Below, piece after piece: positions 7,714 through 59,448 of a stretch of 64,000 nucleotides of DNA (the stretch's first letter is position 1; the number at the start of each line of letters is the position of its first letter). Below the pieces are notes generated by a model. The model had not been told where the DNA came from. It saw only the letters and a list, made by a program, of their open reading frames with translations, and searched no databases. Origin of the DNA: Solimonas aquatica (lineage in GTDB: Bacteria > Pseudomonadota > Gammaproteobacteria > Nevskiales > Nevskiaceae). A program made the translations under genes and the position numbers. Location of the stretch: contig NZ_FOFS01000001.1 in the NCBI RefSeq assembly GCF_900111015.1, forward strand, positions 1 to 64,000, in the 5' to 3' direction.

Positions 7714-7744
7714 AAAACGGCTCACATTTGCTGCGGGATTCACC

Positions 7745-7773
7745 CTTGAATCGCCGCATTGCAGCACTAGATA
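7745..7773 (+). promoter_or_regulatory. Weak candidate dnaK promoter
   Basis: CTTGAA at 7745-7750 matches a sigma-32 -35 element but has no convincing CCCCAT partner. Alternatively TTGAAT (7746-7751) and TAGATA (7768-7773) with a 16-bp gap could be a sigma-70 promoter. Low certainty. Confidence 0.3.
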
Positions 7774-7805
7774 AGCGGTAGCAACGGTATTCTCGGAGTT
7801 TTCAC

Positions 7806-9743
<1,938 letters not shown>

Positions 9744-37659: not shown

Positions 37660-40600
37660 TCACGCACGCGTGCCGCTGCCCTGCTCGGTATGCGCGCTGC
37701 CGTTGTCATTGAGCAGTGAGGCCAGGGTCTCGGCATTGAGCGAGGGCACCTGGAAGCGCACGCGTTCGGGGTCGAAGACCACGCCGCGACTGTCGCTGTA
37801 GTAGTCCACCGGCACGTTGAGACCCAGCGCGAGATTGCTGCCCACCTCGCGCTGCGCCAGCTGCCAGTCCTTGCGCCAGAGTTCCCAGTTCACGCCCAGC
37901 GCACCGGCGATGACGCGCGCATAACCGTGCACGTCGAACTTGAGCTTGGGCGAGAGCGAGGCATTGAGATCGGCATGCAGATGCAGGCCGCTGCTCGCGG
38001 TCCAGTCCAGATCCACGCCGGTGCGCGCGCGCGTTTCCACCGCCACGCCGGCACTCACGCCCAGGCCTGCCTCCAGGGAAATCACCGCGCCGGCGGCCAG
38101 GCCCGCATCCATGCGCGCGTCCACGCCGGCAGCGGCCGGCACTTCGAAATTGGCATGACCGGTGATGTGCAGGCTCTCGGGCTGCGCGGGATTGAAGTCC
38201 ACCACGTTCACTTCCGCCGTGGTCAGCTGGCCCGGACCGATGTGCGCATAACCGTCCACGCCGCCGCTGATGTTGAGCGTCACGCCCATGCCCGGCGCGC
38301 CCACCAGCGGAATCGACAGCGTGGGCATGGAGAACAGGCGGCGGCGGTCGCGCGGCGCGGCCGGATACTGATCGAACACGGTCACCGCCGCCGGCGTGCC
38401 GATGCGGCCGCTGATCAGCAGGCTGCCATTGGGCCGCACGCGGATGCCTACACCGCCCTGCAGCCATTCGGTGACACGCGCATTGAGCGTGCCGCTGCCG
38501 TAGAGGCGCAGCTGATCACCGGGCTGATCGCCGGACAGCTCGCCGTTGTCGCTCACCGCGCGATTGGTGAGGCCCACGTTGACGTTGCCCGAGAAGATGC
38601 TGCGCGCGTAGCTGGCGCGGATCTCGCCGTCGAACAGGCCGTTGTTGTAACGCAGGTGGATATTGGGGTTCAGGCCCGGCAGATTGGGCTGGATATCGCC
38701 TTCGGCCGAGACCTGCCAGGCCTCGTCGCGCTGCTGCAGCTGTGCGTGCACGCGGCCGCCGCTGAGGCCTGGAATGCCGGCGGCCAGATTCAGATCGCCG
38801 GCAATCAGCAGCGAGTTGCCGCCGCTTTCGTCCGGGCCGTAACGCACCGCCAGCCCCGCGCTTTGCACGCCGGGGATGTTGGGCTGCACGCTGCCTTCGG
38901 CATTGAACACGCCCTGGTCGTAGCGCGCCGTCACCTGCGCGCTGCGGATGCCGCGGATCTTGTTGGGATTGGTGATGCCCAGGGTGCCGCTGGCGCCGAA
39001 GCCGCCGGTGGAGCGATACCAGACATTGAGATCGGCGCGGTCGAACAGACGCGGATCGGCACGAAAGCCGCCTTCCAGCTGGAACTGTCCGGCGCTGTCC
39101 ACGCCGGCCTGCAGCGAGCCCTGACCGAAGTTGCGGATGGTGAATTCCGCACCGCCCGCGACACTGAAATTGCTGCCGTCATAGCCGAGCGTGATGCTGG
39201 CGCTGTCCACCGACAGCCCCGGCACGCGCACGCGCTCGGCCAGCGCGCTGGCGTCCACCGTGTAGTAGAGACCCAGACGGCCGTCGCGGATTTCCGCCGG
39301 CAGGCGCAGGCCGGCGAGCGCCGGATGACTGGGCGAGATGAAGGAACGCGCATACACGCCGCGACCCACGCGCAGCTCCTCGATGGCCATCGGGCTCAGC
39401 GGCGTGAACTGCGCGGGAATACTGTTGGGTGGCGGGGCTGCCGCGCCACTGCCGGCAGCCGCCGTCGCGCCGCCGGTGGCGGTGGCCGGCGGCACCGGCG
39501 TGGCGGCGATGCGCACCGCGAAGTTCTCGCGTGCCTTGACGATGGGCAGACGGTGGCGCATGCCGGCCGGGAAGGTGACGGCGGGGCCGAGATTGAGCGT
39601 GCCCTCCAGCTGACCCACCGCCGCGCCTGCGGGCGGCGTGGTGGTGGCCAGAGAGGCGATGGTGATGCCCGGATCGAGCGTGGCGGCGTCGATGCTGTAG
39701 CCGGCAATCGCGCCGGCCTGCGCGCCGCCCACCGTCAGCGTGTTGCCGCTGACCGCGAAGCGGCCGATCACCATCGCCCCGGTGGGCGACTGCAGCGCGA
39801 TCTGCGAGGCCGTGCCGGCGAGATTGCCGCTGCTGCCCGGCAACAGGCGCGTCACATGTTCCAGCTGATTGATCGCACCCTGACTCCAGAAGCTGGAGCC
39901 TTCCTCGCGCCGCGCCGACTCGCGGCCGCGGATCTGCACGCTGGTGAACACGACATCGTAGTTGTCCTTCACGAAGTCGGCGGTGGGCGTGGCGGGGATG
40001 CTCAGGCCCGGCGAGGCGGGCGGCGGTGTGCTGACCAGGCTGGCGCGGATCGCGCGATTGATTTCGTAATTGAAGGACGAACCGACGCTGCCGTTATGCG
40101 TCTGATTGAGCAGTTCCAGATTCGTGATGTCGTCCTGGCCGCCCAGCTGGAACTCGATCATGTGGTCGACCTGATAGTTCTCGCTCGCGCCGGTGATGCT
40201 CCAGTCGGGAATCTTCAGCGTGCGGATCAGCTCGGCATCGGTGGTGGCGCTGAGCGTGCGCACGGTGGCGCCGCCGGCGGCCTGCAGCGGAAGGCTCCAG
40301 GGATTGCCCGGCGCCGGACGATAGGGCGTCAGCGCGGCGTTGTTGAGCGGTGTGCCGGTGAGCACGCCATTGAGCCAGTTGCTGACCTGCGCGGTGGCGC
40401 GCGTGGCGGCGTTGTAGCCGCGTGGGCGGCGCAGGGTGCTGGGCGTGGTGCCGGCCTTGGCGGCATAGGTGGGCGAGTGCCGCGCCTTGATCGGCGGAAT
40501 CTGCAGGGCCACGCTCACGCGATACTCGGGCGCACCCGGCGTGGCCGCGCCGCCGCTGCCCGCGCCACCGGCGGGTGCGCCGCTGCCGGCGGCGGGCGCC

Positions 40601-43600
40601 GCCACGGTGGCGACGCTGGCGCTGCTCGGCGGCGGACTCGTGCTGCTGCCGCCGGGCGGCGTGGTGATGCGCATGATGCTGCGCGACACGCCGTTTTCCT
40701 GCTGCACGACATGGGTCAGCTCATGCGCGAGCAGACGCTTGCCTTCGCGGCTCTGCGGGTCGTACTGCCCGGCGGCAAACACCAGATGCTGGCCGCGCGT
40801 GAAGGCACGCGCCTGCAGCGCACGCGCGGCGGCGTCGGCGGCGCCGTCGGTGTGGATGCGCACCGCGCTGAACTCATGCTGCAGCTGCGGCTCGAATTCG
40901 CTGCGCACCTCGGCGGGCAGGGCTTCGCCGGGACCGAGTCGTGACAGCGGATCGTCGTGGCCGGCGCCGGCCTGTGCGGCACCGGCGGGCTTCTGGCCTT
41001 GCGCCTTGCTGCCGGCCTTGTTGCCGGCGTTCTGCGCGGCGGCCGGCGGACGCTGCGTCGTCACCGCGGCGGTGTGCATGGGCGCTGCCTTGGGCGCCGC
41101 GGCTTGCTGCATGGCGGTGGCGGCGGCCGGCGTGGCGCCGGCGGCGCGGGCGCTCTGCGCCGGCGGGGCACCGGCATGGGCATCGGCCTTGCGCGCCACC
41201 GGCTCGCTATCCTTCTTTTCGCGGGTCTCGGTCTTCTCCGATCCCGCACCGCCGCCCAGCACCTTGCCCATCAGCGCCGAGGTATCGAGCTTGGGCAGCG
41301 AAAACTCCGGCGGACTGAGGCTGGCCTTGTCGGTCTTGCTGTTGTAGCCGGCCTTGATCTTTGCATCGAGCGAGATGCCGGGATCGAGTTCCACCTTCGG
41401 ACCGTTGAACTGCTTTTCCCAGAGCGTGATGGTGTTGACCAGCAGATTGGCCTCGGCATACAGCTTGCCGTTGAGGCCCAGCGAGAGCACGGGCTTCAGG
41501 CTCACGCCGACATCGCCTTTCACGTCCAGGCCATCTCCCAGGCTCCAGGTGAAATCGGCATTGGCCTCGATCTGCGGCTTGACGCCCACTTCCGCCGTCA
41601 TGCCGACGCTGCCGCCGAAATTGGCGATGGCCGCGCTCACCGCCAGACGCGCATCGATGCCGGCGGTGAGACCCACATAGCCGGGCACGATGAACTTGCC
41701 GCCGCCCTTGAAGTGCAGCTGTTCCAGGGTCACTGCCTGCGGATCGAATTCGGCGATCTCGATGTGCACGCCGCTGAGCGTGCCGGGTCCGACCCAGGCA
41801 TCGCTGTACAAGCCGCCCTTGATCGACACGTTCACGCCGACGGCGACGCTGCCGACGGTGATGCCCAGGCCCGGGACCGGCACCGGCGGCGAGGTCATGT
41901 CGAACAAGGTTTTCTTCGACTCGTTCTCCGGCGGATAACGCTTGAACAGATCGGTGCTGGCCAGTTCCAGACGGCCCTTGATGCGCGTGCTGCCATCGGG
42001 CAGCAGGCGCACGCCGGCCTTGCCCTTGAGCTTTTCGGTGAGCTTGGCGTCGATCTCGGCATTGCCGAAGGCCTTGTAGCTCTTGCCGCCTTTCTTGCCG
42101 ACCAGCTGGCCCTTGTCGTCCACCTCGCCATTGGTGACACCGGCGGTGACCTTGCCGGAGAACACGCCGCCGTTGTCGAAGCCCAGCTCGCCCTGGATCA
42201 GCACCAGGCCATCGTCGTAACTGCCCTTGAGATTGCCGGACAGACCCTTGAGGCCGGGCAGCTTGGGCGTGATGTCGCCGCTGCCGGAGAGCTTGTACTC
42301 GCCGCCGCGATCCTCCAGCTTGAGCGTGAGCTTGGCGGCGTCCACGCCGGGCAGCTTGCCCAGATCGGCCTCGCCGCTGATGGTGGTGCCTTCGGGCTTC
42401 ACCTCCAGTCCCAGCTTCACGCTCTTCACGCCGGGGATGTCCACCTCGGCGCTGCCATCGGCCTTGAAGGCGCCGGCATCGTACTTGGCGCTCACATGCG
42501 CGGACTTCAGGCCCTTGATCTTGCCGGGCTTGGTGATGGCCAGATCACCGCTGGCGCCGAAGCCGCCCTGTTCGCGCCACCAGGCCTTGATGGTGGCGGT
42601 GTCGAACATATCGGTGTCGGGCATCAGCGTGCCTTCCACGCTCACGCCCTGCGCCTCGCTCCAGCCGGCACGCAGCTGGCCGCCGCCGAATTTCTTGATG
42701 GTGAAGTACACCGAGCCGTCGACACCGAAGCCATTGCTCAGCGAATAGCTGACTCCGACTTCGGCTTCGTTGATGTCGATGCCCGGCGCCTTGAGCTCCA
42801 GGTTGTCGCTGCCGTAGGACATGCGGAAGCGCACATCCTTGCCGTACAGGCCGACCTCGATGGGCGTCTTGAACAGGGAGATCGAAGGCTGCAGCGAACC
42901 ATCGGCGCGCAGCTGGCCGTCCTCCACGCCCACCGAGCCGAACTTCACCGGACTCAGGTGCTTGAATTCCAGATCCGCCGCGCCGAGCTTGCCGGGATAG
43001 CCGCGATACTTGCCGTTGCCGGCGAGTTCGATGGTCTGCTGGGGATCGGCGGGCTTCCACTTCTCCGCCAGATTCCATTCGCCCTTGATCGTGCCCTGTC
43101 CGGCCAGCGCATTGCTGAACTTGATGCTGTGCATCGAAAAGCCGGCGATGGCGCTCTTGGCCACGCCGTCGATGTTGTATTCGCCCTGCTTGGGATCGGT
43201 CTTGATGCGCTGGATCACCGCGCCGCCGGGCGCGGCCAGCAGCAGGAATTCCTGATCGGTGCCTTCGCGATCATCGGGCGGTGAGGGCTTGATCTCCTCC
43301 ACCGGCAGCGCGTCGATGATTTCATCGCGATACCACCAGGACGAGGCGGCGGCGCCACCGGCCAGGGTCGCTTCCACGCTTTCGAAGAACAGCGTGTGCT
43401 GCTCCAGGAAGTCGCTCTTGCTCGGCACCGGGTCGAAGGTCTTGAGCCAGGCCTCGACCTTGTTGTGGATGCTGTTGCTGATGATGGGGCCGGAGCTGCC
43501 GTTGCTGGGCTGATCCAGCAGCTCCATGTTCTTCAGATCGTTGCCGGTGCCGGTGCCATTCTCGCCGGAGACCTGCAGTTCGACGATGTGGTCCACCTGA

Positions 43601-44892
43601 TAGCCGGTGCCGATGGCCTTGCCATCGCGGCTCCAGGTGGGAATCTGCAGCTTGGTCTTCAGGGCATCGATGGTGATGTCCTGCTTCACGCCATTGCCCA
43701 GCTGCAGCGGAAAGGGGCTGTCATTGGTGGTCGGCGGCGTGATGCCGCGCCCCTGGAGGCGTGCGCGCAGGCGGGCCTCGTCCACCTGCACGCCGGACTT
43801 CCATTTCGCGGCCTGCCCGGGACTGCCGCGCTTGTAGTCGCCCTTGCGCGCCAGCGTGCCGAGCATCTGCTGGTAGTAGGGCAGGTGCCGCGCCTTCACC
43901 GCCGGAATCTCCAGAGTCAGCATCTTCTTCTGGGCGGCGGCGGTGGCAGCGGCGTCCTTGGACTTGAAGCTGGTCGGCGCGGCGGGATCGATGTGCCGCG
44001 CGATGCCCATCGGCGAGCGCTGGTGCTGCACCACGTGCGTCAGCTCATGCGCGAGCAGGGCGCGGCCGCTGCCGCTGTTCGGGTTGTAGCTGCCGCTGGC
44101 GAAGAACACATCGTTGCCGCTGGTGAAGGCCAGCGCGCCCAGGCCCTTGCACAGCTCATGCGACTGCGCATCGTGATGGATGCGCACCTGCGCGAAGTCC
44201 TGCCCGAACTGCTGCTCCAGGCGCGCGCGCAGATCCGGTTCCAGGGCCTGGCCACGTCCCAGCTGATTCTTGATGCGCTGCTGGATCTGCTCGCTGTCCA
44301 GCGCCGGCGGTCTGGCGTCCTGGGCATCGCGCTTGGTCTTCACGTCCAGCGCATCGGGGGCGTGCTGCTGCGCCGGCGCCACCGCGCGCGCCACCGGGGT
44401 TTCGGCGTTCTTCTGTGCCGCTGCGGCCGGCGCCGGCGTGGCCGGCTTGCTGTCCTTTTTCTGCTGCGTGTCCGGTGCCGCGGCATTGGCGTCGAGCTTG
44501 CGCGCGACGCGATCGGCCACCGCATCGGCCTCGCGTTCCACGGCATCGCCGGGCTGGCTCACTTCCAGCTTGGCGCGCACCGCCATGCGATCCGCGCGCT
44601 GCGCATGGCCGGCGGGCGCCTGTGCCGCACCGGCCTTGCCGCCGCCATCGGCGGCTTTCTTCTGGCCCTCGCCGGGACCGGATTTCTGCCCGGCCTTCTG
44701 CGGCTCGCTCTTCGGTGCCTTGGGCGCTTTGTCCTGAGTCTTGTCCTTGGCCTTGTCGCCGCCGGGGTCCGCCGCCTTGCCGGCGGCTTCGGCAGCGCCC
44801 TTGGCCTGCTTGCCCGCAGCCGGCGCGGCGCCCGCCGCCGGCGCAGGACCGGCGGGTTTTTTCTTCTGCTCAGGCGCAGCGGGCGCGGCCAT
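37660..44892 (-). CDS. Giant eCIS-associated protein with two DUF4157 (eCIS core) modules
   Basis: A 2410-residue protein, last gene of the injection-system array. It is built twice. Half 1: Lys/Pro/Ala-rich disordered region (1-100), the segment KLEVSQPGDAVEREADAVADRV at 109-130 that precedes DUF4157 in many eCIS proteins, DUF4157 with HELTH at 282-286, an HNH-like motif around Asp434-His435 and Asn455, then beta-rich repeats to about 1240. Half 2: linker, DUF4157 with HELTH at 1390-1394, DH at 1576-1577, and a matching beta-rich part; GFGASG occurs near 776 and 1963. DUF4157 marks eCIS-linked cargo. The ATG at 44892 is 13 bases after the upstream stop. Function unknown; cargo or tail-tip component is inferred. 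Confidence 0.8.
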   Translation of the reverse strand: MAAPAAPEQKKKPAGPAPAAGAAPAAGKQAKGAAEAAGKAADPGGDKAKDKTQDKAPKAPKSEPQKAGQKSGPGEGQKKAADGGGKAGAAQAPAGHAQRADRMAVRAKLEVSQPGDAVEREADAVADRVARKLDANAAAPDTQQKKDSKPATPAPAAAAQKNAETPVARAVAPAQQHAPDALDVKTKRDAQDARPPALDSEQIQQRIKNQLGRGQALEPDLRARLEQQFGQDFAQVRIHHDAQSHELCKGLGALAFTSGNDVFFASGSYNPNSGSGRALLAHELTHVVQHQRSPMGIARHIDPAAPTSFKSKDAAATAAAQKKMLTLEIPAVKARHLPYYQQMLGTLARKGDYKRGSPGQAAKWKSGVQVDEARLRARLQGRGITPPTTNDSPFPLQLGNGVKQDITIDALKTKLQIPTWSRDGKAIGTGYQVDHIVELQVSGENGTGTGNDLKNMELLDQPSNGSSGPIISNSIHNKVEAWLKTFDPVPSKSDFLEQHTLFFESVEATLAGGAAASSWWYRDEIIDALPVEEIKPSPPDDREGTDQEFLLLAAPGGAVIQRIKTDPKQGEYNIDGVAKSAIAGFSMHSIKFSNALAGQGTIKGEWNLAEKWKPADPQQTIELAGNGKYRGYPGKLGAADLEFKHLSPVKFGSVGVEDGQLRADGSLQPSISLFKTPIEVGLYGKDVRFRMSYGSDNLELKAPGIDINEAEVGVSYSLSNGFGVDGSVYFTIKKFGGGQLRAGWSEAQGVSVEGTLMPDTDMFDTATIKAWWREQGGFGASGDLAITKPGKIKGLKSAHVSAKYDAGAFKADGSAEVDIPGVKSVKLGLEVKPEGTTISGEADLGKLPGVDAAKLTLKLEDRGGEYKLSGSGDITPKLPGLKGLSGNLKGSYDDGLVLIQGELGFDNGGVFSGKVTAGVTNGEVDDKGQLVGKKGGKSYKAFGNAEIDAKLTEKLKGKAGVRLLPDGSTRIKGRLELASTDLFKRYPPENESKKTLFDMTSPPVPVPGLGITVGSVAVGVNVSIKGGLYSDAWVGPGTLSGVHIEIAEFDPQAVTLEQLHFKGGGKFIVPGYVGLTAGIDARLAVSAAIANFGGSVGMTAEVGVKPQIEANADFTWSLGDGLDVKGDVGVSLKPVLSLGLNGKLYAEANLLVNTITLWEKQFNGPKVELDPGISLDAKIKAGYNSKTDKASLSPPEFSLPKLDTSALMGKVLGGGAGSEKTETREKKDSEPVARKADAHAGAPPAQSARAAGATPAAATAMQQAAAPKAAPMHTAAVTTQRPPAAAQNAGNKAGSKAQGQKPAGAAQAGAGHDDPLSRLGPGEALPAEVRSEFEPQLQHEFSAVRIHTDGAADAAARALQARAFTRGQHLVFAAGQYDPQSREGKRLLAHELTHVVQQENGVSRSIMRITTPPGGSSTSPPPSSASVATVAAPAAGSGAPAGGAGSGGAATPGAPEYRVSVALQIPPIKARHSPTYAAKAGTTPSTLRRPRGYNAATRATAQVSNWLNGVLTGTPLNNAALTPYRPAPGNPWSLPLQAAGGATVRTLSATTDAELIRTLKIPDWSITGASENYQVDHMIEFQLGGQDDITNLELLNQTHNGSVGSSFNYEINRAIRASLVSTPPPASPGLSIPATPTADFVKDNYDVVFTSVQIRGRESARREEGSSFWSQGAINQLEHVTRLLPGSSGNLAGTASQIALQSPTGAMVIGRFAVSGNTLTVGGAQAGAIAGYSIDAATLDPGITIASLATTTPPAGAAVGQLEGTLNLGPAVTFPAGMRHRLPIVKARENFAVRIAATPVPPATATGGATAAAGSGAAAPPPNSIPAQFTPLSPMAIEELRVGRGVYARSFISPSHPALAGLRLPAEIRDGRLGLYYTVDASALAERVRVPGLSVDSASITLGYDGSNFSVAGGAEFTIRNFGQGSLQAGVDSAGQFQLEGGFRADPRLFDRADLNVWYRSTGGFGASGTLGITNPNKIRGIRSAQVTARYDQGVFNAEGSVQPNIPGVQSAGLAVRYGPDESGGNSLLIAGDLNLAAGIPGLSGGRVHAQLQQRDEAWQVSAEGDIQPNLPGLNPNIHLRYNNGLFDGEIRASYARSIFSGNVNVGLTNRAVSDNGELSGDQPGDQLRLYGSGTLNARVTEWLQGGVGIRVRPNGSLLISGRIGTPAAVTVFDQYPAAPRDRRRLFSMPTLSIPLVGAPGMGVTLNISGGVDGYAHIGPGQLTTAEVNVVDFNPAQPESLHITGHANFEVPAAAGVDARMDAGLAAGAVISLEAGLGVSAGVAVETRARTGVDLDWTASSGLHLHADLNASLSPKLKFDVHGYARVIAGALGVNWELWRKDWQLAQREVGSNLALGLNVPVDYYSDSRGVVFDPERVRFQVPSLNAETLASLLNDNGSAHTEQGSGTRA

Positions 44893-44905: not shown

Positions 44906-47900
44906 TCAGCGCTTGCGCGCGCTGGGCTTGCGGATGGTCTTGGGCGCCGCCGGGCCGCTGGCGCCTGCGGCTGCCGCTGCGGCGACGGCATCGGCGACGG
45001 GCACCGCATCGCTGCTGACTTTGTTGTCGGTGGGCGGCGCTTCATCGCAGCTGACCAGCAGGAAGCCGCCGTCGAAGTCACGCTGTGCAAACCACGGCGC
45101 TTCGGGCAGCGACTTCACGCTGCGCGCACCGCGCGACTCGATCAGGGGCTGCAAGAGCTGCAGCAGGCGTTTGGCGCGCTCATGGTTCTGCCAGTTCTGG
45201 CCGGTGACGGGCGCGCGTTCCCAGAGCAGCACGCCGGCCAGATAGTCGGCGGGCTGCGCCTGTTTCCAGTCGCTGAGAATCTCGTTCTGGCTTTCCGTGG
45301 GCGAGCTGGCGGCATCGTGGTAATGCAGCACATCCACGCGCTGCGGTGTCGGCAGACTGGTGCCGGGCGCCTCGCCGAGGCTGAGCATCTTGAGAATCTT
45401 CAGCGCTTCCTCGCGCGACTTGGCGCGGTAATGCCAGGTCTGGAAGGCGTCGATGCTGCTGGCCTGCGGGCAGCCGCAGTCGCTGTCGCAGCGCAGCGGC
45501 GCGCGGCGGCGGAAGGCCAGCCAGTCGCGCGTGGCGCGCACGCGCAGCACACCGTCGGCCGGCGCGCTGTCGGGGAACAGGCGACGGCGTGCGCGCGCCA
45601 GGAAGGCATCGTCCTGCGCGGCATCGGCGATCTGCGCCAGGGTGTTGAGCGCGTTCAGGCGCAGCGGGCTTTCCGGCTGCGGCGCCGCGCCCAGCTCCTG
45701 CAGACGCACATAGGGATCGATGTCGGGCGCGGACTGTTGCGCGTAGCTCAGCTTCCTGACTTTCTCATGCAGCATGTCCTGCTTGTACACGGTGCCGCTG
45801 AAGGCGTCCTGATAGGGGCCGAACACCGCCTCGCGCGGCTGCTCGCCCCAGCTCGCGCCCAGTCCGGCGTCGCTGTCGCCGGCGGCGGCCAGCAGCGTGC
45901 CGCTGCGCGCATCGCCCTGGCGCATCAGGCGCAGGGGCAGGGTGTAGCTGCCGTTCTTGGTGGTCTCATCGTCCGGTGTCTTCTCGGTCATGGCGAGCTG
46001 CATGCGGATGCTCACCTCGGCGCCCTGGATGCGCGCGCTGACCTTGTACAGCGCGCCGACCGTGAGCCGGCCTTCGCCGAAGAAGCTTTGCAGCTGCGTC
46101 TGCGGCTGGCCGCTACCATCGTCGAGCGTGGTGAGCAGGCGCAGCTCCAGACTCAGGGGCAGCTCCTCGCCTTCGGCCTGCGTGAACGGGTCTTCGGCAA
46201 TGCTCAGGTCCACATACAGGGCGCTGAGCGTGCGCTTGCGGTAGGCCATGGCGCCCTGCGCATCGCTCTGCTGCTTTTCCATCTCGGACTTGAGCTGCCG
46301 CGCATAGAACAGCTTGCCGGCATCCGGCTGGCAGACCAGGCTCAGGCGCGCGCCACCGGTTTCCAGCGGCATGCTGCGCGCCAGCCCGGCGAAGTCGCTG
46401 CTCTCGACATCGTCCTCGGTGTCGATCTGGTAGGACTCCATCCGGATGCTGTCGTCGCTCTTCTGCTTTTTCTGAATGAAGTCCTGCTGCAGGTCCTGCT
46501 TGCTGTTCACCATCAGCAGCTCGGGCAGCAGGCGCATCAGCTCGCGGGCGCGCAGCGCCACCTGCCAGTAGCGGCCGGTGTCGGTGGACACCGCGTCGAG
46601 CAGCTGGCCGTCGGGAACCAGAATCTCCACGTCCTCCTTGTTGCCCGGATCATCCAGGCCGCGCGTGAGGCTGATGCGGTCCAGATGCTGGGCGTCTTGA
46701 ACCGCGCCGGCGATGGCGTCGGGCCGGCAGGTGCAGAAGTACAGGTTCACGCCTTCGCCGAACAGGCGCTGCATCTGCTCGTTGATCGCCTGCTGGCTGA
46801 GCTGCACCGGCAGATAGCCGGCCGGCGGCAGTTCCACGAAACCGCTGCTGAGCAGCAGGCGGTTGGGCGTGTAGGTCTTCATCGCGCCCTGCGCATCGAC
46901 CAGCTTGCCGGCCAGCTTGTGGATGCGTTGATAAGGCTGCTCCAGCATCTGGATCATCTCGCCGGCCTGCTCCTTGCCGCCGAGCAGTTCCATGATCTTG
47001 CGATTGCCGGCCTCGTACTTGGCGCGCGCGGCCTCCAGCTCGCGCGCCGAATCGATCAGCAGCTGGCGCAGCTTGTCGCAGTCGCTGTCCAGGGGCGTGA
47101 ACGCCGTGCTGCCGGCCTCGAAGGCGCCGGAGAGCTGACACTGGAACTGCAGGATCTGCGCGATGAACACGTTCCAGGGCCGCATGCGCATGCGGCCCTG
47201 CCAGTAGCCGCGCGCCTGCGCGTCCATGCGTTCGCGTCGCGCGCTCCAGGCATCGATGAACAGCGTGCTGCCGCCCTGGCGCGCGAGCAGGCCGATGGGA
47301 ACCTCGTCGCGCGTGTACAGCGCGGCCGGCTGACACCAGACCTCGCAGTTCAGGCCCTGCGCGTTGAGCAGCGACTTGCTGAGCCAGGGTTCGCTGGCGA
47401 AGTAGGCGCTGGCCATGCGGTTGCGCAGATGCGTGGCGCCCAGGCTCACCGCGCTGCTGTCGGGCAGGCTCAGGCTGATGGGTCGCAGGCGCAGCATCAG
47501 GCCTTCCTTGAAGTAGGGCTGCTGCGAATCCGTGACGCAGGCGTCCTCGCAGAGCTTGCCGTACACCTCTTCCTGTCCGCACAAGGCCTGCACGGGCCCC
47601 ACGGTGATTTCGTACCAGTCGCTGACCACGCTGGCCACGCCGGAGCCCTCATCCTTTTTCTTCTTGCACTCGCAATCGCCGAAGGCCTGATTGCCGGCCA
47701 CGCTGTCGGGATTGGGCGGCGAGGGCTGCGCGCGCTTGATCAGTTCGCCGAGGCTGGCGCTGAGCTCGTGCTGCAGCAGCACGGTGCTGCCAGCCGGCGT
47801 GATCGCCAGGCCTGAGCTGAGTTTCAGCGTGTCGCCGGACAAGCCCAGGCCCAGGCCATGCACCACGCCCCAGCCGCCGGCGAGATTGCTCAGGCGCACC

Positions 47901-48046
47901 AGCTGACGGTGATAGTCCTGTTCCAGGGTGAGGGCATCGGCACGCAGATACTTGCCGTCGAAGTAGTGCAGGCGGGTGAGGCTGGCATCGCTCTCGATGC
48001 TCGCCAGGCCGTCCTGCACCGCGCTCGTGGTGGTGGTGTCGCCCAT
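44906..48046 (-). CDS. eCIS-array protein with HG-x-GVVHG N-terminal domain (large paralogue)
   Basis: A 1046-residue protein of unknown function. Residues about 22-95 form a domain (LHYFDGKYLRADALTLEQDYHRQ, GGWGVVHGLGLG, LSSGLAITPAG) that is also present in the next protein upstream. Cys clusters occur at CECKKKK, CGQEEVYGKLC and CDSDCGC. A Gln/Glu-rich helical middle and an Ala-rich basic tail follow. The ATG at 48046 lies two bases after the upstream stop, and the stop is 13 bases before the giant DUF4157 gene, so it belongs to the eCIS operon. A structural decoration or receptor-contact role is conceivable but not shown. Confidence 0.6.
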   Translation of the reverse strand: MGDTTTTSAVQDGLASIESDASLTRLHYFDGKYLRADALTLEQDYHRQLVRLSNLAGGWGVVHGLGLGLSGDTLKLSSGLAITPAGSTVLLQHELSASLGELIKRAQPSPPNPDSVAGNQAFGDCECKKKKDEGSGVASVVSDWYEITVGPVQALCGQEEVYGKLCEDACVTDSQQPYFKEGLMLRLRPISLSLPDSSAVSLGATHLRNRMASAYFASEPWLSKSLLNAQGLNCEVWCQPAALYTRDEVPIGLLARQGGSTLFIDAWSARRERMDAQARGYWQGRMRMRPWNVFIAQILQFQCQLSGAFEAGSTAFTPLDSDCDKLRQLLIDSARELEAARAKYEAGNRKIMELLGGKEQAGEMIQMLEQPYQRIHKLAGKLVDAQGAMKTYTPNRLLLSSGFVELPPAGYLPVQLSQQAINEQMQRLFGEGVNLYFCTCRPDAIAGAVQDAQHLDRISLTRGLDDPGNKEDVEILVPDGQLLDAVSTDTGRYWQVALRARELMRLLPELLMVNSKQDLQQDFIQKKQKSDDSIRMESYQIDTEDDVESSDFAGLARSMPLETGGARLSLVCQPDAGKLFYARQLKSEMEKQQSDAQGAMAYRKRTLSALYVDLSIAEDPFTQAEGEELPLSLELRLLTTLDDGSGQPQTQLQSFFGEGRLTVGALYKVSARIQGAEVSIRMQLAMTEKTPDDETTKNGSYTLPLRLMRQGDARSGTLLAAAGDSDAGLGASWGEQPREAVFGPYQDAFSGTVYKQDMLHEKVRKLSYAQQSAPDIDPYVRLQELGAAPQPESPLRLNALNTLAQIADAAQDDAFLARARRRLFPDSAPADGVLRVRATRDWLAFRRRAPLRCDSDCGCPQASSIDAFQTWHYRAKSREEALKILKMLSLGEAPGTSLPTPQRVDVLHYHDAASSPTESQNEILSDWKQAQPADYLAGVLLWERAPVTGQNWQNHERAKRLLQLLQPLIESRGARSVKSLPEAPWFAQRDFDGGFLLVSCDEAPPTDNKVSSDAVPVADAVAAAAAAGASGPAAPKTIRKPSARKR

Positions 48047-48048
48047 GA

Positions 48049-49404
48049 TCAGACTCCGGAAACGGGGAAGAAGAAATCGCTGCCCTGGCCATCGGGCATC
48101 TGGATGCCGGCGGCGCTGCCATCGCTGCCGCGCAGGGCGGCGGCACCGCTGCCGCGGATACCGACGCGCAGCGCGCGGCCGGCGGCGGGCGCGTGATCCA
48201 GCGTCAGGCTCACGCGCTGCTGCGCGTTGTCGTAGGCCGCTGCGCTGAGCGTGAAGTCCTGCCACTGCCCGGCCGCATCCTGCTGGCTGCACACGAAGGC
48301 GCCGGACTGCACGCTGGCGGCATCCAGCGCGCGGTCGAGGCGCAGCGTCAGCTGCGTGCCGGAGACTTGTGCGCCGCCGCTCTTCAGCAGCGGGCCGGTG
48401 GCGGGCAGCACATCGCTGCCGGAGAAGACCGGCAGCTGCTGCAGCAGCTGCGCGGGCAGCAGGGTCTGGCGGCCGTCGATATCGATGCCGCCGACCTCGG
48501 CCTGCAGGACATCGCCGTTCTTGTGCAGATGCACGCCGGACAGCCGTGCCAGCACCAGGCAGTCGGCGGTGGCCCTGCCGCTGCCATCGCCGGCATCGTC
48601 CGGTGGGGGCCAGCTCGCCTGCGGCAGCGGGTCCGTGGTGGCCGCGGCGGCGCGTGCGCTCGCCGCCTGCCAGAGCTTGGCGCGCGCGGCCGGCAGCTGC
48701 GCCTTCGCGAGCATGGCGATGGCGGCGAGCTGTGCGGCGAGCCAGACGTCATCGCTCAGCGTGCAGCCCTGCGCATCACGCGCCGGCGCGTCCAGGCCGC
48801 CGAGCAGGCGCAGCAGGTGATAGGGCGCGAGGGGCGCCTCGCTGGCCGCGCCGCTCTTGCGCCGCACCAGCAGCAGCTGCGGCGCCTCGCAGATGCGCGA
48901 GTAGGCGAGATTGGCGCTGCCCGGCGCGCAGGCATCGGCTATCGCCGGCACCGCGCGGGACAGGCAGTTGCGATAGCAGAGCAGGATTTCGGCGTCGAAG
49001 CTGGCATCGTCCTTGTCGGCGATGTCGGCAAAGGCCTCATCCTCGCGATGCAGCTGCCACCAGGCGGCGAGGTCCAGGCATTGCGCCTCGGCCAGCTGCA
49101 GATCGCGGCCGAGGCGGTCGAGCGCATAGCCGGCGCCGACTTTCAGCTGCCGCTGCGCGGCATCGAAGCTCACCGCATAGCCATGCACCACGCCAAAGCC
49201 GTGCAGCGCGCGCTGATGACGGCGCAGGCGGCCGACATGAAAGCCCTGCTCGGTGCGGAAGTCATCGACGCCCAGCAGCATGCCGTAGTGATAGTGGATC
49301 GCGCAGTCGGGGCTGTCCGGCAGCGCATCGCCGCAGGGCCCTTTGCTGCTGCTCTGCGTGCCGCCGCAGCCGCAGCCCGTGCCGGGATTTTCCAGTGCGC
49401 CCAT
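48049..49404 (-). CDS. eCIS-array protein with HG-x-GVVHG N-terminal domain (small paralogue)
   Basis: A 451-residue protein. After a Cys/Gly-rich start (GCGCGG) it has the same domain as its neighbour: HYHYGMLLGVDDFRTEQGFH, RALHGFGVVHGYAV, VGAGYALDRLGRDLQL. The second half contains beta-rich, Ig-like stretches (TLRLDRALDAASVQSGAF, SLTLDHAPAAGRALRV) and ends FFFPVSGV. Such proteins are known to me only as hypothetical proteins near tail-like loci. It lies between the large paralogue and a coiled-coil protein in the same operon. Confidence 0.6.
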   Translation of the reverse strand: MGALENPGTGCGCGGTQSSSKGPCGDALPDSPDCAIHYHYGMLLGVDDFRTEQGFHVGRLRRHQRALHGFGVVHGYAVSFDAAQRQLKVGAGYALDRLGRDLQLAEAQCLDLAAWWQLHREDEAFADIADKDDASFDAEILLCYRNCLSRAVPAIADACAPGSANLAYSRICEAPQLLLVRRKSGAASEAPLAPYHLLRLLGGLDAPARDAQGCTLSDDVWLAAQLAAIAMLAKAQLPAARAKLWQAASARAAAATTDPLPQASWPPPDDAGDGSGRATADCLVLARLSGVHLHKNGDVLQAEVGGIDIDGRQTLLPAQLLQQLPVFSGSDVLPATGPLLKSGGAQVSGTQLTLRLDRALDAASVQSGAFVCSQQDAAGQWQDFTLSAAAYDNAQQRVSLTLDHAPAAGRALRVGIRGSGAAALRGSDGSAAGIQMPDGQGSDFFFPVSGV

Positions 49405-49433: not shown

Positions 49434-50834
49434 TCAAACGGCGGCGACGAAGCGCGCGATGCTGCCCGCGCGGCGCGTGCTCAGCTCGGTTTCACGGCGC
49501 AGGGCGTCGGCGCTTTCGCCCAGGCCCTGCGTCAGCAGATCCAGGCCGCGCTGCTCGGCCGAGACTGCATCCAGATTGCCGGCCAGCGCCGCTTCGGCCG
49601 CGCTCAGATTGCTGATCAGCGTGGCCGGCACCAGCTTCTTGAACGCGTCCAGCTCATCCAGCGCGGCATCGAGCGTGTCGAGCGGATCCCAGAGCGCATC
49701 GCTGGCGGCGGCGAACCAGCTGCGCAGCAGCGCGAGCTTGGGCGCCAGCGCGGTGACCGCGTTGTTCAGGGTGGTCTGCGCCGGATCGATCTTGTCGTGC
49801 AGGGTCTTGAGCGCGGCATCGGCGGCGATCAGCGCCGCTTCGCTGGCATCGGGCTTGGCGATCTGCGCCGCGCGCAGGGCGCGTCCATAAGCGCTCTGCG
49901 CATCCAGCAGCGCGGCCTGCGCCTCGTCGCGATCCTTGAGCAGCTTCAGCGCCGCCTCGCGTTCGCCGCGCAGGGCGGCATCGCCGTCGGCCTTGAACAG
50001 CTTGGCCTGCGCGGCGGTCAATGGCGAGGTGCTGCGCGCGGCCAGCGCCGTCAGCACTTCCTCGTCGCGCGCCAGGCGCGGCGGTGCCAGCGCCAGGTTC
50101 TGCAAGGCGGCGACGGCCTGCTCGAAGGCCAGCTTGAGGCCGGCGGTCTTGTCGCTGTCGCGACCGCAGGCCTCGGCTTTCAGACGCTGCTGGCGCTGCG
50201 CCTCGCTGGTGTCATCGCGGCTGAGCGTCAGCAGCTTGGCGCCGAGCTGGCGGCGTGCGCGCACCCGCGTCAGCAGATCGAACTTGGGATCGGCATTGCC
50301 GGGGAAGTCGGCTTCGATCTTCGCCTTGGCGGCGGCGCCGACGCCGGCGATCAGGGCTGCGGCCTGCGCCGGCACGTCCTTGAGCGCGCCGCTGCCGGCC
50401 GAGCTGATCCAGTCCTGACGCTGCGCGCGCGCCTTGTCCTCGGCGTCACGCGCGGCCTGCGCGGCGCTGCGCCGCGCCTGCAGCGCGTCCAGGCGCGCGC
50501 CCAGACGCAGGCACAGCGCCTGCGCATCACGCAGCGCGGTCTCGCGCTGCACGTACAGCGCGGCCTGCACGCGCGCCTGCAGCACCGCGTCGCGCATCTG
50601 CTGCAGCAGCGGATCGCTGTCGGCAGGCATGGCGATGCCGCCCAGGGCCTTGCGCGCGGCGTCCACCGCCTTGCGCGCCGCGTCCAGGGCATCGCCGGTC
50701 TGCGTGTAATCGTTCTGCGCGCTCTGCTGCGTGGCCTGGGCATTGGCCAGCGCCGCGCGCTGCGCCAGCAAGGCGGCATCCAGACGCGCCAGCTCGGCGC
50801 TCCAGTAGGCACTCAAGGTCGTGGGGGCTGGCAT
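49434..50834 (-). CDS. Ala-rich coiled-coil protein of the eCIS array
   Basis: A 466-residue, almost wholly helical protein rich in Ala, Leu, Arg, Gln and Asp, with heptad-like runs over residues 10-130 and 210-330. No membrane segment, enzyme motif or known domain was recognised. It starts nine bases after the AAA+ ATPase gene, so it is co-expressed with it. It could be a scaffold or assembly factor; alternatively a second length-determining protein. Function unknown. Confidence 0.55.
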   Translation of the reverse strand: MPAPTTLSAYWSAELARLDAALLAQRAALANAQATQQSAQNDYTQTGDALDAARKAVDAARKALGGIAMPADSDPLLQQMRDAVLQARVQAALYVQRETALRDAQALCLRLGARLDALQARRSAAQAARDAEDKARAQRQDWISSAGSGALKDVPAQAAALIAGVGAAAKAKIEADFPGNADPKFDLLTRVRARRQLGAKLLTLSRDDTSEAQRQQRLKAEACGRDSDKTAGLKLAFEQAVAALQNLALAPPRLARDEEVLTALAARSTSPLTAAQAKLFKADGDAALRGEREAALKLLKDRDEAQAALLDAQSAYGRALRAAQIAKPDASEAALIAADAALKTLHDKIDPAQTTLNNAVTALAPKLALLRSWFAAASDALWDPLDTLDAALDELDAFKKLVPATLISNLSAAEAALAGNLDAVSAEQRGLDLLTQGLGESADALRRETELSTRRAGSIARFVAAV

Positions 50835-50843: not shown

Positions 50844-52943
50844 CTATTGCCGCAGATGAGTCGTGGGGGAGGCATCGGGCCGCGTACGCGGCGGCAGGCC
50901 GGGAAAGGCCTTGCCGGCTTTTTCGTACTCGCGCTCGATGGCACTTAAAAAATGCGTCTGACGGATCGCCGGACGCTCGCCGCCGCGCTGGGCGGCGGCG
51001 AGAAAGGCCGCCGCCAGCGCCGCGTTGCGGATCTGCGCGCCGGAGAGCGCATACCAGTCGGCGAGTTCGGCGAGGTCGGTGTCGCTGTGCAGCGGCGCTT
51101 CGGCCGGCAGATGCAGACGCCAGAGCTGTTCGCGCGTGGCCTGATCGGGTTCCGGGAATTCGACGATGAACTCGAAGCGGCGCATGAACGCCTGATCCAG
51201 GCTCGCGCGCAGATTGGTGGCGAGGATCGCCACGCCCTCGTAGCGCTCCAGACGCTGCAGCAGGAAGGCGGTTTCCAGATTGGCGTAGCGGTCGTGCGCG
51301 TCGCCGCCTTCGCTGCGCCGTCCGAACAGGGCATCGGCCTCGTCGAACAGCAGCAGCGCGCGCGAGCGCTCGGCCAGATCGAAGACCGCCGCGAGATTCT
51401 TCTCGGTCTCGCCCAGCCATTTCGACACCAGGCTGGAGAGATCCACGGCCAGCAGATCCACGCCCAGGCTGCGCGCCATGGCTTCGGCGGCCAGGGTCTT
51501 GCCGGTGCCGGGCGGCCCGAAGAACAGCATGCGCAGGCCACGACGGTTCTGGCAGCCCTGCTCGAAGCCCCAGTCGTCGAGCACGGTGAGCTGCTGCTGC
51601 ACGCGCAGCACCGCCTCGGAGAGCTGCTGCGCGGCGCGCTGCGGCAGCAGCAGATCGCGCCACTGCGCGCGCGGCAGGATGCGCCGCACGCCGGGCCGCG
51701 CGCGCCAGCTGCTGCGCGCGCGCAGACAGTCGCCGATGTCGTCGAAGTCCAGGCGCGCGTCCTCGCGCTCGGCGGTGCGCTGACGCAGCGCCAGATCGCC
51801 GAGCAGGCCGCGCGCCTCATCGGGTTCGATGGGATAACGCGCCGCGAGCAGGCCGGCCTGTTCGCCCAGCTGCGGCAGCAGGCTGCGCCACATGCTGCGC
51901 CGCGCGCTCGCCGGCAGGGCCTCGATGCGCAGGCACAGCAGCGGCAGGTTCAGTTCCGGCAGGCTGCTCTCCTGCGTCGCGCCCAGCAGCAGTGGCCCGG
52001 GCCAGGGCAGCTGCGCCGGCAGCGACCAGCGCAGGCCACCCTGATCGGGGCTTTCCTCGTCGAGGTCCAGCCAGGGACAGGCCTGCAGCGCGAAGGCCGC
52101 GCAGCAGGCTTCCAGCGCCAGACTGCGCTTGGCGGCCTCGCTGCCATCCGGCGGCAGGCGCACGCGCACCGCGGCGCGCGGCAGCTGGCCCAGCAACAGG
52201 CGCGCGCGCGTGGCGCGCATCGCCGCGCTGCCGCCGAGCAGCACGATCGCGCAGGGCTCGCCTTCGCGCAGGGCGCGCAGCGCATGCTGCACCTCGCTCT
52301 GCGCCAGCCAGCTGTCCAGGCCGGGCACGCTGGCAAAGCCGGGCAGCAGTTCGCTGCGCGGCAGCTGCGGCGCGCGCGCCTGCAGCGCTGCCCAGACGCC
52401 GGGACCGAGCAGGAGATTGCGGCTGTGCCAGGGGCCTTCGCCTTCCAGCTGCAGCAGGCCCAGCGTGGCCAGCGGCGTATGCACCAGCAGTTCTTCCACG
52501 GCCTCGCGTGTCGCCTGCACGGCCGCTTCATCGTCACCGCATTCATGTTCCAGCCAGTGCAGGGCCAGACTCACGCTGGCACAGCTTTCACCGCGCGCAT
52601 GCAGCAGGCGGCAGAGCGTGGCGTAACCCTCGTGCAGCTCGGGCAGGGCGGCGAGCAGCAGCAGATCGGCAAACAGCTGTGCGTGGGCCGCTTCTTCGAG
52701 CATCGCCGTGAGCCGCTGCAGCGGATGATCCGGCGGCAGTTGCGCCAGCGCCGCGCCCGCCGCGCTGCGCTGCGCGTAATCGCGCGCGAAGCGCAGCGCG
52801 GCGCCCAGTTCGGTGTCCTGGCCGCCGGCATCGGCGCTGCCGAAGCGCGCCTGCAAGGCTTCGGCCAGACGCAGGCCGGTCCGTGCCAGCGCAAGGCGCG
52901 TGTGCTCGCGGGTGAGCGCTGCCAGTTCCAGGGTCTCAGTCAT
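50844..52943 (-). CDS. AAA+ ATPase of the contractile injection system (Afp15-like)
   Basis: A 699-residue protein with a helical N-terminal half of unclear function and a classic AAA+ module at about 440-650: Walker A GPPGTGKT near 475-482, Walker B LLLFDEADALF near 528-538, and the sensor segment AILATNLRASLDQAFMRRF. An ATPase of this type is a constant member of eCIS loci (Afp15 in Serratia) and is needed for particle assembly. The ATG at 52943 overlaps the upstream stop by eight bases; an in-frame TTG two codons earlier is less likely. Confidence 0.88.
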   Translation of the reverse strand: MTETLELAALTREHTRLALARTGLRLAEALQARFGSADAGGQDTELGAALRFARDYAQRSAAGAALAQLPPDHPLQRLTAMLEEAAHAQLFADLLLLAALPELHEGYATLCRLLHARGESCASVSLALHWLEHECGDDEAAVQATREAVEELLVHTPLATLGLLQLEGEGPWHSRNLLLGPGVWAALQARAPQLPRSELLPGFASVPGLDSWLAQSEVQHALRALREGEPCAIVLLGGSAAMRATRARLLLGQLPRAAVRVRLPPDGSEAAKRSLALEACCAAFALQACPWLDLDEESPDQGGLRWSLPAQLPWPGPLLLGATQESSLPELNLPLLCLRIEALPASARRSMWRSLLPQLGEQAGLLAARYPIEPDEARGLLGDLALRQRTAEREDARLDFDDIGDCLRARSSWRARPGVRRILPRAQWRDLLLPQRAAQQLSEAVLRVQQQLTVLDDWGFEQGCQNRRGLRMLFFGPPGTGKTLAAEAMARSLGVDLLAVDLSSLVSKWLGETEKNLAAVFDLAERSRALLLFDEADALFGRRSEGGDAHDRYANLETAFLLQRLERYEGVAILATNLRASLDQAFMRRFEFIVEFPEPDQATREQLWRLHLPAEAPLHSDTDLAELADWYALSGAQIRNAALAAAFLAAAQRGGERPAIRQTHFLSAIEREYEKAGKAFPGLPPRTRPDASPTTHLRQ

Positions 52944-54393
52944 AGACAAACCTCATCACGCAGCCCAGCCAGGGCAGGTAGCCGGGGTCCAGATCCAGGG
53001 CGGCGCGACGGATGCGGACATCGGCCTCGCGCGCGGCCATGTGCAGCTCGATCCAGCCCGGCTCGAACACGATCCCGGCGCGGCGATGCAGCAGCCAGGG
53101 CAGCAGCGGGGGTTCCTGAGCCTGCCAGTCGAGGCGCTTCTGCAACAGCAGCAGCAGGCGTTCCTGCAGTGACTGCAGTTCGGCCTGCTGCGCCTCGGAC
53201 AGCGGCGCGGCATCCTCGTCCGCCGAGGCCGGAGACCAGCCGCCGCAGAAGGCGCGCAGCGCCGGGTCGCGGGCATCGATCTGCAGCGGGCCGAGGGCCA
53301 GACGACGCAGCAGCTGTGGCGCGCTCAGCGCGCCGCTGCGCAGGCTCGCGCCGTCCAGCAGACCGGCTGCCGGCAGCAGGTTCAGCAGGAACAGCAGGCC
53401 GGCCTGCGCGCTGCTCTGCGATTCGGCAGCCTGCGGCAGCTCGGGCGGCGTGCGCGGCGCAGAAGCTTCATCGTCCGTGCCTGCGCGCGCCGGCGCAGGC
53501 TTTGCGGTGCCCGCTTCGGCAGTGCCTGCGGCGGCCTGGAGCTGGCGGCGTGCGCTCAGGCGCGCCGCGGTCGCCGGCACCGGCGGCGTCATCGCGCGCA
53601 GCTGCGCGGCGGCAGCCTGCAGCGTGTGCTGGCGCGCGGCATCGCCTGCTGCGGCCGGTTGCGCGCAGGCGGCGAGCAGAACCAGCAGGGCCTCGCGGCG
53701 TTGCGCAATCAGCTGCGGCTGTTCGCGCAGCAGCGGCAGCAGCAGCGCCAGCTCGGCGCTGTGCGGCAGCGGCGCCGGCGTGGCCGCATCCGCTGCCGGC
53801 GGCTGCAGGTAAGCGCGGCTTTGCGGACAGGCCTGCAGCAGCTGTCGCCACTGCGCCGGCGTGTAGGCGCGCAGCAGCAGCGCGAAAGCGCCGTTCTGCG
53901 GCTGCGCCTGCAGCAGGCGCATCAGCACCGGCCAGATCAGTTCGGTTTCGCGGACCAGGCTCTGCACGGCGGACTCGCGCAGCTCGGCGATGCTGCTGCT
54001 TTCGGCCCAGGCCGGCAGCAGGCGCAGCTGCTGCCAGGCCCAGAGCCGCTCGCGATCATTGGCGGCGAGGCGGTAGAGCAGATCGGCCAGCGCTGCGCGC
54101 CGCTGCGGATAACGCAGCACATGCCGTTCCGCGCTGCTGCCATGCAAGGCGGCGTCGAGGGCTTCCTGCAGTGCGGCGCGGAACATGACCAGGGCCTGGG
54201 CGCTGCCATCCTCGGCCTGCAGGCGGCCGCGCAGCTGCAGGCTGCGCACGCAGATCAGCTCTTCGCTGTCGTGGACGGGATCGGGCGCTTCGCGCAGCTC
54301 GTCGAGACCTTCATGCCAGGCGCGCAGCTGCTGCGCGCTCAGGGCCTGCGGGCTGTGGAAGCGGTTGCGCCAGCGCGCGATGCTCAGGCTCAT
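52936..54393 (-). CDS. Probable eCIS tape-measure-like protein
   Basis: A 485-residue protein directly upstream of the AAA+ ATPase, where the CIS tape-measure gene commonly lies. It is helical and Leu/Ala/Gln-rich, with AGLLFLLNLLPAAGLLDG near residue 330, then QERLLLLLQKRLDWQ, and a C-terminal strand region ending RRAALDLDPGYLPWLGCVMRFVYD, in short pieces similar to the ends of CIS-associated proteins. The ATG at 54393 overlaps the upstream stop (ATGA). The tape-measure assignment rests on position and general pattern, not on a full match. Confidence 0.5.
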   Translation of the reverse strand: MSLSIARWRNRFHSPQALSAQQLRAWHEGLDELREAPDPVHDSEELICVRSLQLRGRLQAEDGSAQALVMFRAALQEALDAALHGSSAERHVLRYPQRRAALADLLYRLAANDRERLWAWQQLRLLPAWAESSSIAELRESAVQSLVRETELIWPVLMRLLQAQPQNGAFALLLRAYTPAQWRQLLQACPQSRAYLQPPAADAATPAPLPHSAELALLLPLLREQPQLIAQRREALLVLLAACAQPAAAGDAARQHTLQAAAAQLRAMTPPVPATAARLSARRQLQAAAGTAEAGTAKPAPARAGTDDEASAPRTPPELPQAAESQSSAQAGLLFLLNLLPAAGLLDGASLRSGALSAPQLLRRLALGPLQIDARDPALRAFCGGWSPASADEDAAPLSEAQQAELQSLQERLLLLLQKRLDWQAQEPPLLPWLLHRRAGIVFEPGWIELHMAAREADVRIRRAALDLDPGYLPWLGCVMRFVYD

Positions 54394-59045: not shown

Positions 59046-59052
59046 GGGCGCA

Positions 59053-59448
59053 TCACTCCAGGTAGAAGGGGTAAACCAGGGAATCGCGACGGCCGCTGTA
59101 GACGTGCAGGTACTGCACATCGATCTGGATCAGCGCGGCATCCGCGCCGGGCAGCACGTCCACCTGCTCCAGCTGGATGCGCGGCTCCCAGCGCTGCAGG
59201 GCCAGACGCACCTCGCGCTCGATCTGCGCGCGCGTGGCGCCGTTGTTGGGCTGCATCAGGAAGCGGCGCAGGCCGCAGCCGAACTCCGGCAGCATCACGC
59301 GCTCGCCGGGCTCGGTGTCGAGAATGATGAAGATGGACTGGCGCACCTTCTCCGGTCCTTCCACGCGCGCCATGCGCCCGCCTTCCAGCGGAAACAGCGG
59401 CAGGCCCTGGCCGCGGCCGAGCAGTTCCAGACGATCCCCGGCGCTCAT
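59053..59448 (-). CDS. gp25-like baseplate wedge protein (Afp9-like)
   Basis: A 131-residue member of the GPW/gp25 family, the baseplate protein that starts sheath polymerisation. Typical pieces are VRQSIFIILDTEPGERVMLPEFGCGLRRF and REVRLALQRWEPRI, with the EPGER motif near residues 51-55. The ATG at 59448 overlaps the upstream stop (ATGA), which decides the start. Confidence 0.92.
   Translation of the reverse strand: MSAGDRLELLGRGQGLPLFPLEGGRMARVEGPEKVRQSIFIILDTEPGERVMLPEFGCGLRRFLMQPNNGATRAQIEREVRLALQRWEPRIQLEQVDVLPGADAALIQIDVQYLHVYSGRRDSLVYPFYLE

Follow-up and report, generated by a model that had tools for sequence, protein, structure and literature searches.

What does a single protein with two DUF4157 modules do at the end of an eCIS operon: is it a two-headed cargo, or a dimer joined in one chain? 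The question arises from the product of 2410 residues encoded by a gene of Solimonas aquatica, located in the window analyzed here, the first 64,000 nucleotides of contig NZ_FOFS01000001.1. The initial annotation left both answers open, and we favor the two-headed cargo over the dimer, since both halves of the protein conserve the HNH residues and since three relatives carry, after their second core, a part that does not match the unit.

The gene is complete and lies on the minus strand, from 44892 to 37660. The frame opens upstream at 45090, and translation from this first TTG to 37660 would give 2476 aa. We prefer the ATG at 44892 (2410 aa), since it comes after the stop of the upstream gene (44908-44906), since AAAGG stands six bases 5' of it and since the resulting N-terminus resembles the beginnings of the relatives (MPA...KKPA); residue numbers on this scale are those of the 2476-aa frame minus 66. 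In the 2410-aa numbering, HELTH occurs at residues 282 and 1390, DH at 434 and 1576 and GFGASG at 777 and 1964, all within one residue of the positions first read from the sequence. The order eCIS_core (DUF4157), HNH-like domain, beta-rich region is found twice. Pfam recognizes two eCIS_core domains (E = 2.5e-58 for the whole protein), the scores of both copies (112.2 and 105.5 bits) are over the curated cut-off of 22, and the HExxH motif (HELTH) is present in both. The chain is organized as follows.

37660..44892, minus strand: two-unit DUF4157 (eCIS_core)/HNH-like/beta-rich protein, 2410 aa, complete gene
44293..44892, minus strand: low-complexity N-terminal leader (Ala/Pro/Lys), from the sequence
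44491..44586, minus strand: conserved leader segment PGDAVEREADAVADRV, the sole copy detected in the chain (leader profile, 48.5 bits)
44014..44244, minus strand: first eCIS_core (PF13699), HELTH intact (105.5 bits)
43291..43938, minus strand: first HNH-like domain, in which D-H, E, Q, N, E-L, N and G are conserved; no library match listed
41221..43275, minus strand: first beta-rich region, first-position clade (beta tree, nearest-neighbour check)
40969..41220, minus strand: Ala/Pro-rich inter-unit linker, leader segment not detected (leader profile)
40690..40923, minus strand: second eCIS_core (PF13699), HELTH intact (112.2 bits)
39856..40539, minus strand: second HNH-like domain (Pfam HNH match at 40099-40182; two PHROG HNH families)
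37681..39843, minus strand: second beta-rich region, second-position clade (beta tree)

The placement of the gene at the end of an eCIS operon was confirmed by the neighboring Pvc16, sheath, tube, baseplate and AAA genes. It is the last gene of a minus-strand operon that enters from the neighboring 20 kb, where the operon starts with Pvc16, sheath, tube, second sheath, tube and CIS_tube; GPD, gp25, baseplate J, Tail_P2_I, the AAA ATPase and several proteins without assignment come after CIS_tube. In L003 (500-5440), at the operon start, two sheath genes and two T4-gp19-like tube genes are found, and a CIS_tube gene adjoins them. The genes of the operon assigned within the window, together with the three between the ATPase and the cargo gene, are the following.

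61984..63084, minus strand: GPD / VgrG-like spike hub
59053..59475, minus strand: gp25-like baseplate wedge / sheath initiator
56829..59120, minus strand: baseplate J-like protein (TIGR02243)
54390..56624, minus strand: CIS12-like / Tail_P2_I baseplate protein
50844..52949, minus strand: AAA ATPase (Pfam AAA, 7.5e-27)
49434..50834, minus strand: 466-aa operon protein, without family match
48049..49404, minus strand: second gene with a weak CIS13-like N-terminus
44906..48046, minus strand: P0002, the directly upstream gene, with a weak CIS13-like N-terminus

We take the ATPase to be of the Pvc15/Afp15 type, by its position. The two adjoining, weakly CIS13-like proteins (44906-48046 and 48049-49404) possibly result from an old duplication of a tail-associated protein, and a relative of P0002 lies upstream of the cargo gene in 7 of the 43 loci described below. 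No immunity gene stands directly behind the cargo gene; a convergent AraC-like regulator (36633-37634), 25 bases downstream, occupies this place instead.

The 2410-aa protein accounts for every eCIS_core match in the genome. Within the order, the HNH/beta unit was detected in 2 of 85 genomes, this one and another with a weak partial match (E=7.9e-4), and in 0 of 10 congeners. The locus therefore appears to have been acquired; going by record names, the closest relatives belong to Betaproteobacteria. The initial annotation held a double DUF4157 module to be unusual, and the class sample bears this out: 73 eCIS_core matches were obtained in 35 of 369 genomes, and two in one frame, as judged by frame length with at most 14 candidates scored per genome, only in this genome.

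When residues 1-1330 of the 2476-aa frame were compared with residues 1331-2476 by BLASTP, a single alignment spanning 1111 columns resulted (30% identity, 393 bits, E=9e-121), a long half-to-half match of the kind that the proposed duplication predicts. Taken part by part, the halves are 40% identical over the core (96 columns), 31% over the HNH-like part (203 columns) and 29% over the beta part (666 columns). The DNA of the halves shares scattered patches only (about 69-83% identity, the longest of 200 bases), so that we reject a recent duplication or an assembly repeat as the explanation; the two-core chains present in the assemblies of other species speak against it as well.

The core, the HNH-like domain and the beta region are thus repeated; the leader, which the initial annotation had included in the repeated order, is not, since its conserved segment, PGDxxEREADxVA, occurs once, before the first core. 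On the Ala/Pro-rich linker that precedes the second core, the leader profile found nothing. Among core-bearing frames, 41 of 54 contain the segment at E<=1e-8 (leaving out repeats L046 and L053, the same records as L016 and L018), and among the remaining 13 are a clade in which the segment is degenerate and frames truncated at an end. A single leader, ahead of the first core only, characterizes all five two-core chains, including that of G1057, in which a second match of -0.8 bits is meaningless. As the profile derives from these same proteins, finding the segment in them is partly circular, which does not apply to its absence before the second cores. The idea that the leader is absent in the second genes of the tandem pairs of Thauera, Aromatoleum and Cupriavidus was rejected, as a degenerate leader, EREAE, was found there.

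The residues D-H, E, Q, N, E-L, N and G of the HNH-like domain are invariant in 25 of 25 aligned units, both halves of the 2410-aa protein included, and all 25 contain the D-H...N...N pattern of HNH endonucleases, in which these residues have catalytic roles. The second copy matched Pfam HNH with 20.5 bits in a protein search, just below the cut-off of 21.4, and with 23.3 bits, above it, in a genome search; it also matched two PHROG HNH families (E=9.9e-5 and 5.7e-3), and these library matches fall on the invariant HNH residues. No library match was listed for the first copy, and Pfam HNH reached E<0.1 in only 4 of the 25 units. A profile of the HNH part matched nothing in the PDB, and that of the whole unit returned two chains, at E=0.65 and E=0.66, including a piece of Cas9 HNH whose alignment lies at the motif. 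A profile comparison with an HNH set scored 16.2, above all 30 column shuffles (top 13.2), but with a probability of 2%, the set being narrow: 24 motif-picked sequences, nearly all of the CxxC type, and including L116, evidently in a wrong frame. We consider the domain a likely nuclease.

Each HNH-like domain precedes about 690-720 residues with a beta pattern. In the first of these regions, hydrophobicity alternates with a beta period (z of 8.4-9.5 at 160-180 degrees, and -3.6 at 100 degrees), and the family profile of the region aligns to itself with an offset of about 56 residues; no known fold was matched. A long helical, tape-measure-like region was not found, the first beta region showing the beta period, and there was no tape-measure match among PHROGs. 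In L062, with eCIS genes adjoining, the HNH part stands near one end of a frame that is truncated at the opposite one, and this position suggests that some settings do not require the beta part.

How do the two units of the chain relate to those of other proteins? When a collection that represents each species by one genome was scanned, 43 loci with the unit were found, in records from Pseudomonadota, Bacteroidota, Acidobacteriota, Thermodesulfobacteriota and Cloacimonadota. By domain counting, 36 of the 43 have one core and one unit in a single frame, 7 of these frames being cut at a sequence end (L025, L026, L027, L036, L057, L058 and L061). Two cores in one chain occur in three loci: L047, of Pseudoduganella namucuonensis, encodes two full units (2357 aa), and L041 and L049, of Accumulibacter, encode one unit and then a second core, which is followed by a different part. 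In L029 and L055 the unit's gene is divided between two frames, and L062 and L063 show the HNH part alone. In these last two, which are Thermodesulfobacteria records, the visible, cut frame has no eCIS_core, and Pvc16, sheath and tube genes adjoin. A search of 249 genomes of one family gave 15 matches, some of them weak, and added a fourth two-core relative, G1057 (L092), with a 2218-aa chain of two cores and one unit; in 392 genomes of the family of Pseudoduganella, only that genome and one weak match were obtained. The eCIS proteins of the Solimonas operon match inside 30 of the 43 loci, 13 of these by the AAA match alone (the ATPase matches in 26), and in none of the other 13, several of which are cut short. 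Pattern matches in viral contigs (35) and in a first scan of genome contigs with a two-row alignment (46) were never confirmed, and searches of NCBIfam, PADLOC and PDB sequences with the 2410-aa protein gave nothing useful.

Several of these loci have neighbors of their own. In L022, L031, L039 and L040, which are 4 of 18 loci inspected, the single-unit cargo gene is followed, at a distance of 2-11 bases, by the gene of a protein of about 290-320 aa. This protein, related among the four and, by eye, TPR-like, is a candidate partner or immunity protein; it is absent behind the 2410-aa gene. L023, L024 and L028 have two consecutive DUF4157 genes (about 6400-9270 and onwards), of which, judged by eye, the HNH/beta gene seems to overlap the end of the upstream one, its ATG lying about 20 bases ahead of that gene's stop, and the upstream DUF4157 gene of L024 contains an OmpA domain. 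L061 (2644-7236) encodes a further DUF4157 protein of 1531 aa, with a C-terminal match to GH-E HNH/Endo VII that falls just short of the cut-off (23.8 of 25 bits); the HNH/beta unit is present next to it in two copies, both cut by sequence ends.

That the two halves of the 2410-aa protein are each other's closest relatives was rejected for the whole unit (p-AU 7e-61), for the HNH part (p-AU 1e-40) and for the beta part (p-AU 4e-76). These AU tests used 22 of 43 rows, and the beta tree 20 with L092a and L093; the unit set had 43 rows, 41 of them with an HNH/beta unit (without L029, L055, L058, L062, L063 and the repeat L046), the 39-row tree lacked L041b, L049b, L036 and L061c, and all trees were quick maximum-likelihood trees with SH-aLRT as the only support. 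In the beta tree, the first-position regions of the 2410-aa protein, Accumulibacter, Pseudoduganella and G1057 form one clade (SH-aLRT 100), and the second-position regions of the 2410-aa protein and Pseudoduganella form another with the single-unit proteins L043, L044 and L093 (SH-aLRT 98). The two clades are sisters (SH-aLRT 99 for the joint clade), and the split is therefore older than the divergence of this chain from those of Pseudoduganella and Accumulibacter. No first-position beta region was seen outside two-core chains (5 of 5, L041 and L049 being near copies), and second-position ones were seen in two two-core chains and four single-unit proteins (L044 and L045 being near copies). 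A nearest-neighbor check agreed with the tree for 11 of 11 regions whose position labels had been assigned by hand in advance and for 32 of 32 others. The tree of the HNH part places the Pseudoduganella first unit with the second type, which points to exchange inside or between chains. The trees thus support one old split, probably followed by exchange and, in some relatives, by the retention of a single unit; the initial annotation was right about the ancient split between unit types, which is not private to this protein.

The second halves tell of exchange as well. In L041, L049 and L092, the second core precedes a part of about 800 residues, 81-91% identical among the three, which has no meaningful match to the units of the 2410-aa protein (best E=2.0) and, in L041, no Pfam match; by eye, it may be caspase-like (LDAC) and SH3-like. 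Between L049 and L092, this part is 91% identical and the first beta regions are 32% identical, so second halves move between chains. The first beta region of L092 is 60% identical to that of Pseudoduganella (L047), whose second half is an HNH/beta unit, and the first beta region of the 2410-aa protein is 47-48% identical to the Accumulibacter ones; the first-unit identities thus cross the types of second half, and two first-unit subclades (SH-aLRT 100 each) occur with both kinds. We tentatively suggest that some eCIS particles may carry modular, multi-warhead chains, in which the leader-bearing first unit would act as a carrier and the second DUF4157 unit as an exchangeable slot. With the same reserve, such a slot might hold either a second nuclease unit or another effector.

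A two-unit cargo could also have arisen without in-frame tandem duplication, if two cargo genes that had evolved separately became fused. The halves are not sisters, their GC contents differ (65.0% versus 69.9%), second halves move between chains, and in several relatives separate DUF4157 genes adjoin the gene of the unit, some with a brief overlap. However, the sister relationship of the two position clades of beta regions (SH-aLRT 99) is consistent with a single duplication at the root of this operon type, and the first-position unit was not met as a separate gene among the regions compared. We consider a fusion possible, but somewhat less likely than not.

The Solimonas protein is probably a two-unit cargo (effector) of the eCIS, a two-headed nuclease loaded once per chain, as far as can be judged from sequence comparison. 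A single loaded chain with two effector units is the simplest account of a protein that has one leader but two cores and two HNH-like domains, both conserved. The N-terminus, of low complexity and with the sole leader segment, would bring the chain to the particle, the AAA ATPase of the operon probably helping with loading, and the DUF4157 (eCIS_core) domains would serve as packing or docking domains. Each unit would then comprise an HNH-type metal nuclease followed by the beta-rich, internally repeated region, and contraction would deliver both nucleases to the target in a fixed 1:1 ratio. In evolutionary terms, the chain goes back to an old split into a first- and a second-position unit; later, some chains exchanged the second for a different part, and the second type also occurs in single-unit proteins. 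The comparison itself shows the order of the domains, the conserved residues, the operon context, the single leader, the phylogeny and the exchange of second halves, and from these features we infer nuclease activity, the loading route, DUF4157 docking and the delivery of both units. Points against this reading are the weak library support for HNH, the absence of an immunity gene behind the cargo gene and the 13 loci in which the eCIS proteins of the Solimonas operon had no match.

Two other readings of the chain have to be weighed against this one. If the units fold together into a pseudo-dimer, for instance a rod or plug in the tube with a structural second unit, the two beta regions would be expected to pair, and their sister clades with fixed positions, the strand alternation of the first region and the self-offset of the family profile by about 56 residues all agree with this. 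Yet most relatives use one unit (36 of 43, 7 of them cut), both halves keep the HNH residues and, in three of the two-core chains, what follows the second core does not match the unit; since second halves were swapped, the second unit appears to be an effector slot rather than an obligate half of a dimer, and we consider the pseudo-dimer unlikely. Alternatively, a polyprotein could be loaded whole and then cut in the linker at 40969-41220, perhaps by a DUF4157 metallopeptidase site, freeing two effectors. The linker is long and of low complexity, both cores have an intact HExxH, and the C-terminal domain of VgrG2b, which belongs to a family often annotated as DUF4157, has a zinc-metallopeptidase structure (PMC6899460). 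Nevertheless, cleavage by an eCIS DUF4157 domain was not found in the accessible portions of the literature, the growth inhibition by AlgoCIS Cgo1 is reported there to be independent of its metalloprotease motifs (PMC8894135), and direct substrate cleavage was not found for VgrG2b in the accessible portion of its description (PMC6899460). We regard such a cut as quite improbable.

Chains of this kind offer two experimental openings. With two cores and one leader per chain, they separate both elements and provide a test of whether a DUF4157 core is carried without a leader of its own, and they allow a test of whether one particle delivers two effectors from one chain. An exchangeable second slot, if true, would be one route by which eCIS arsenals diversify.

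These points bear on DUF4157, which, in the portions of the literature available to us, widely marks eCIS cargo and is said to have an unknown role (PMC8213781, PMC11297309). According to the same sources, many eCIS toxins have DUF4157 at their N-terminus. Partial accounts also place the DUF4157 proteins Cgo1 and Cgo2 in the lumen of the AlgoCIS tube (PMC8894135), describe the coelution of a DUF4157 effector with baseplate proteins in Streptomyces davawensis (PMC11126660), propose that a DUF4157 protein of S. lividans links to the baseplate core (PMC13277306) and report AAA-aided loading in PVC (PMC11495950). A double-core DUF4157 chain was not found in the literature by a search that was thin on subscription journals; the phrase "two DUF4157" referred only to two separate proteins, no DUF4157-HNH fusion appeared in the accessible texts, and a query for Accumulibacter, HNH and fusion returned nothing to the point.

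As far as the accessible parts of these reports go, the Solimonas protein shares features with the DUF4157 toxins of eCIS and with Cgo1 and Cgo2, which likewise have DUF4157 near the N-terminus and an effector part at the C-terminus, and are likewise encoded at the 3' end of eCIS operons, sometimes with very long linkers (PMC8213781, PMC11297309, PMC8894135); these proteins have one DUF4157 each, whereas the 2410-aa chain has two full HNH-like/beta units. Tme of the Streptomyces CIS, as described in part, is also a long DUF4157 protein with a nuclease part and is associated with baseplate proteins (PMC11126660). It has tape-measure-like and transmembrane regions and an EndA-like nuclease at its C-terminus, unlike the 2410-aa protein, in which the long region is of the beta type and the nuclease-like domain stands ahead of it, twice. 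The VgrG2b metallopeptidase effectors share the HExxH core of the DUF4157 kind, but there, in the accessible account, the metallopeptidase is the toxin (PMC6899460), whereas in the 2410-aa protein the core precedes a candidate effector domain and may serve packing. The BaCT DNase domains and the HNH/Endo VII polymorphic toxins are likewise nucleases fused to a delivery domain, and BaCT stands behind DUF4157; BaCT has, in the portion of the report available, a (D/E)xK motif, not HNH (PMC7073777). The 2410-aa protein differs from it in having an HNH-like domain that is marginal to Pfam HNH and is followed by a beta region of about 690-720 aa.
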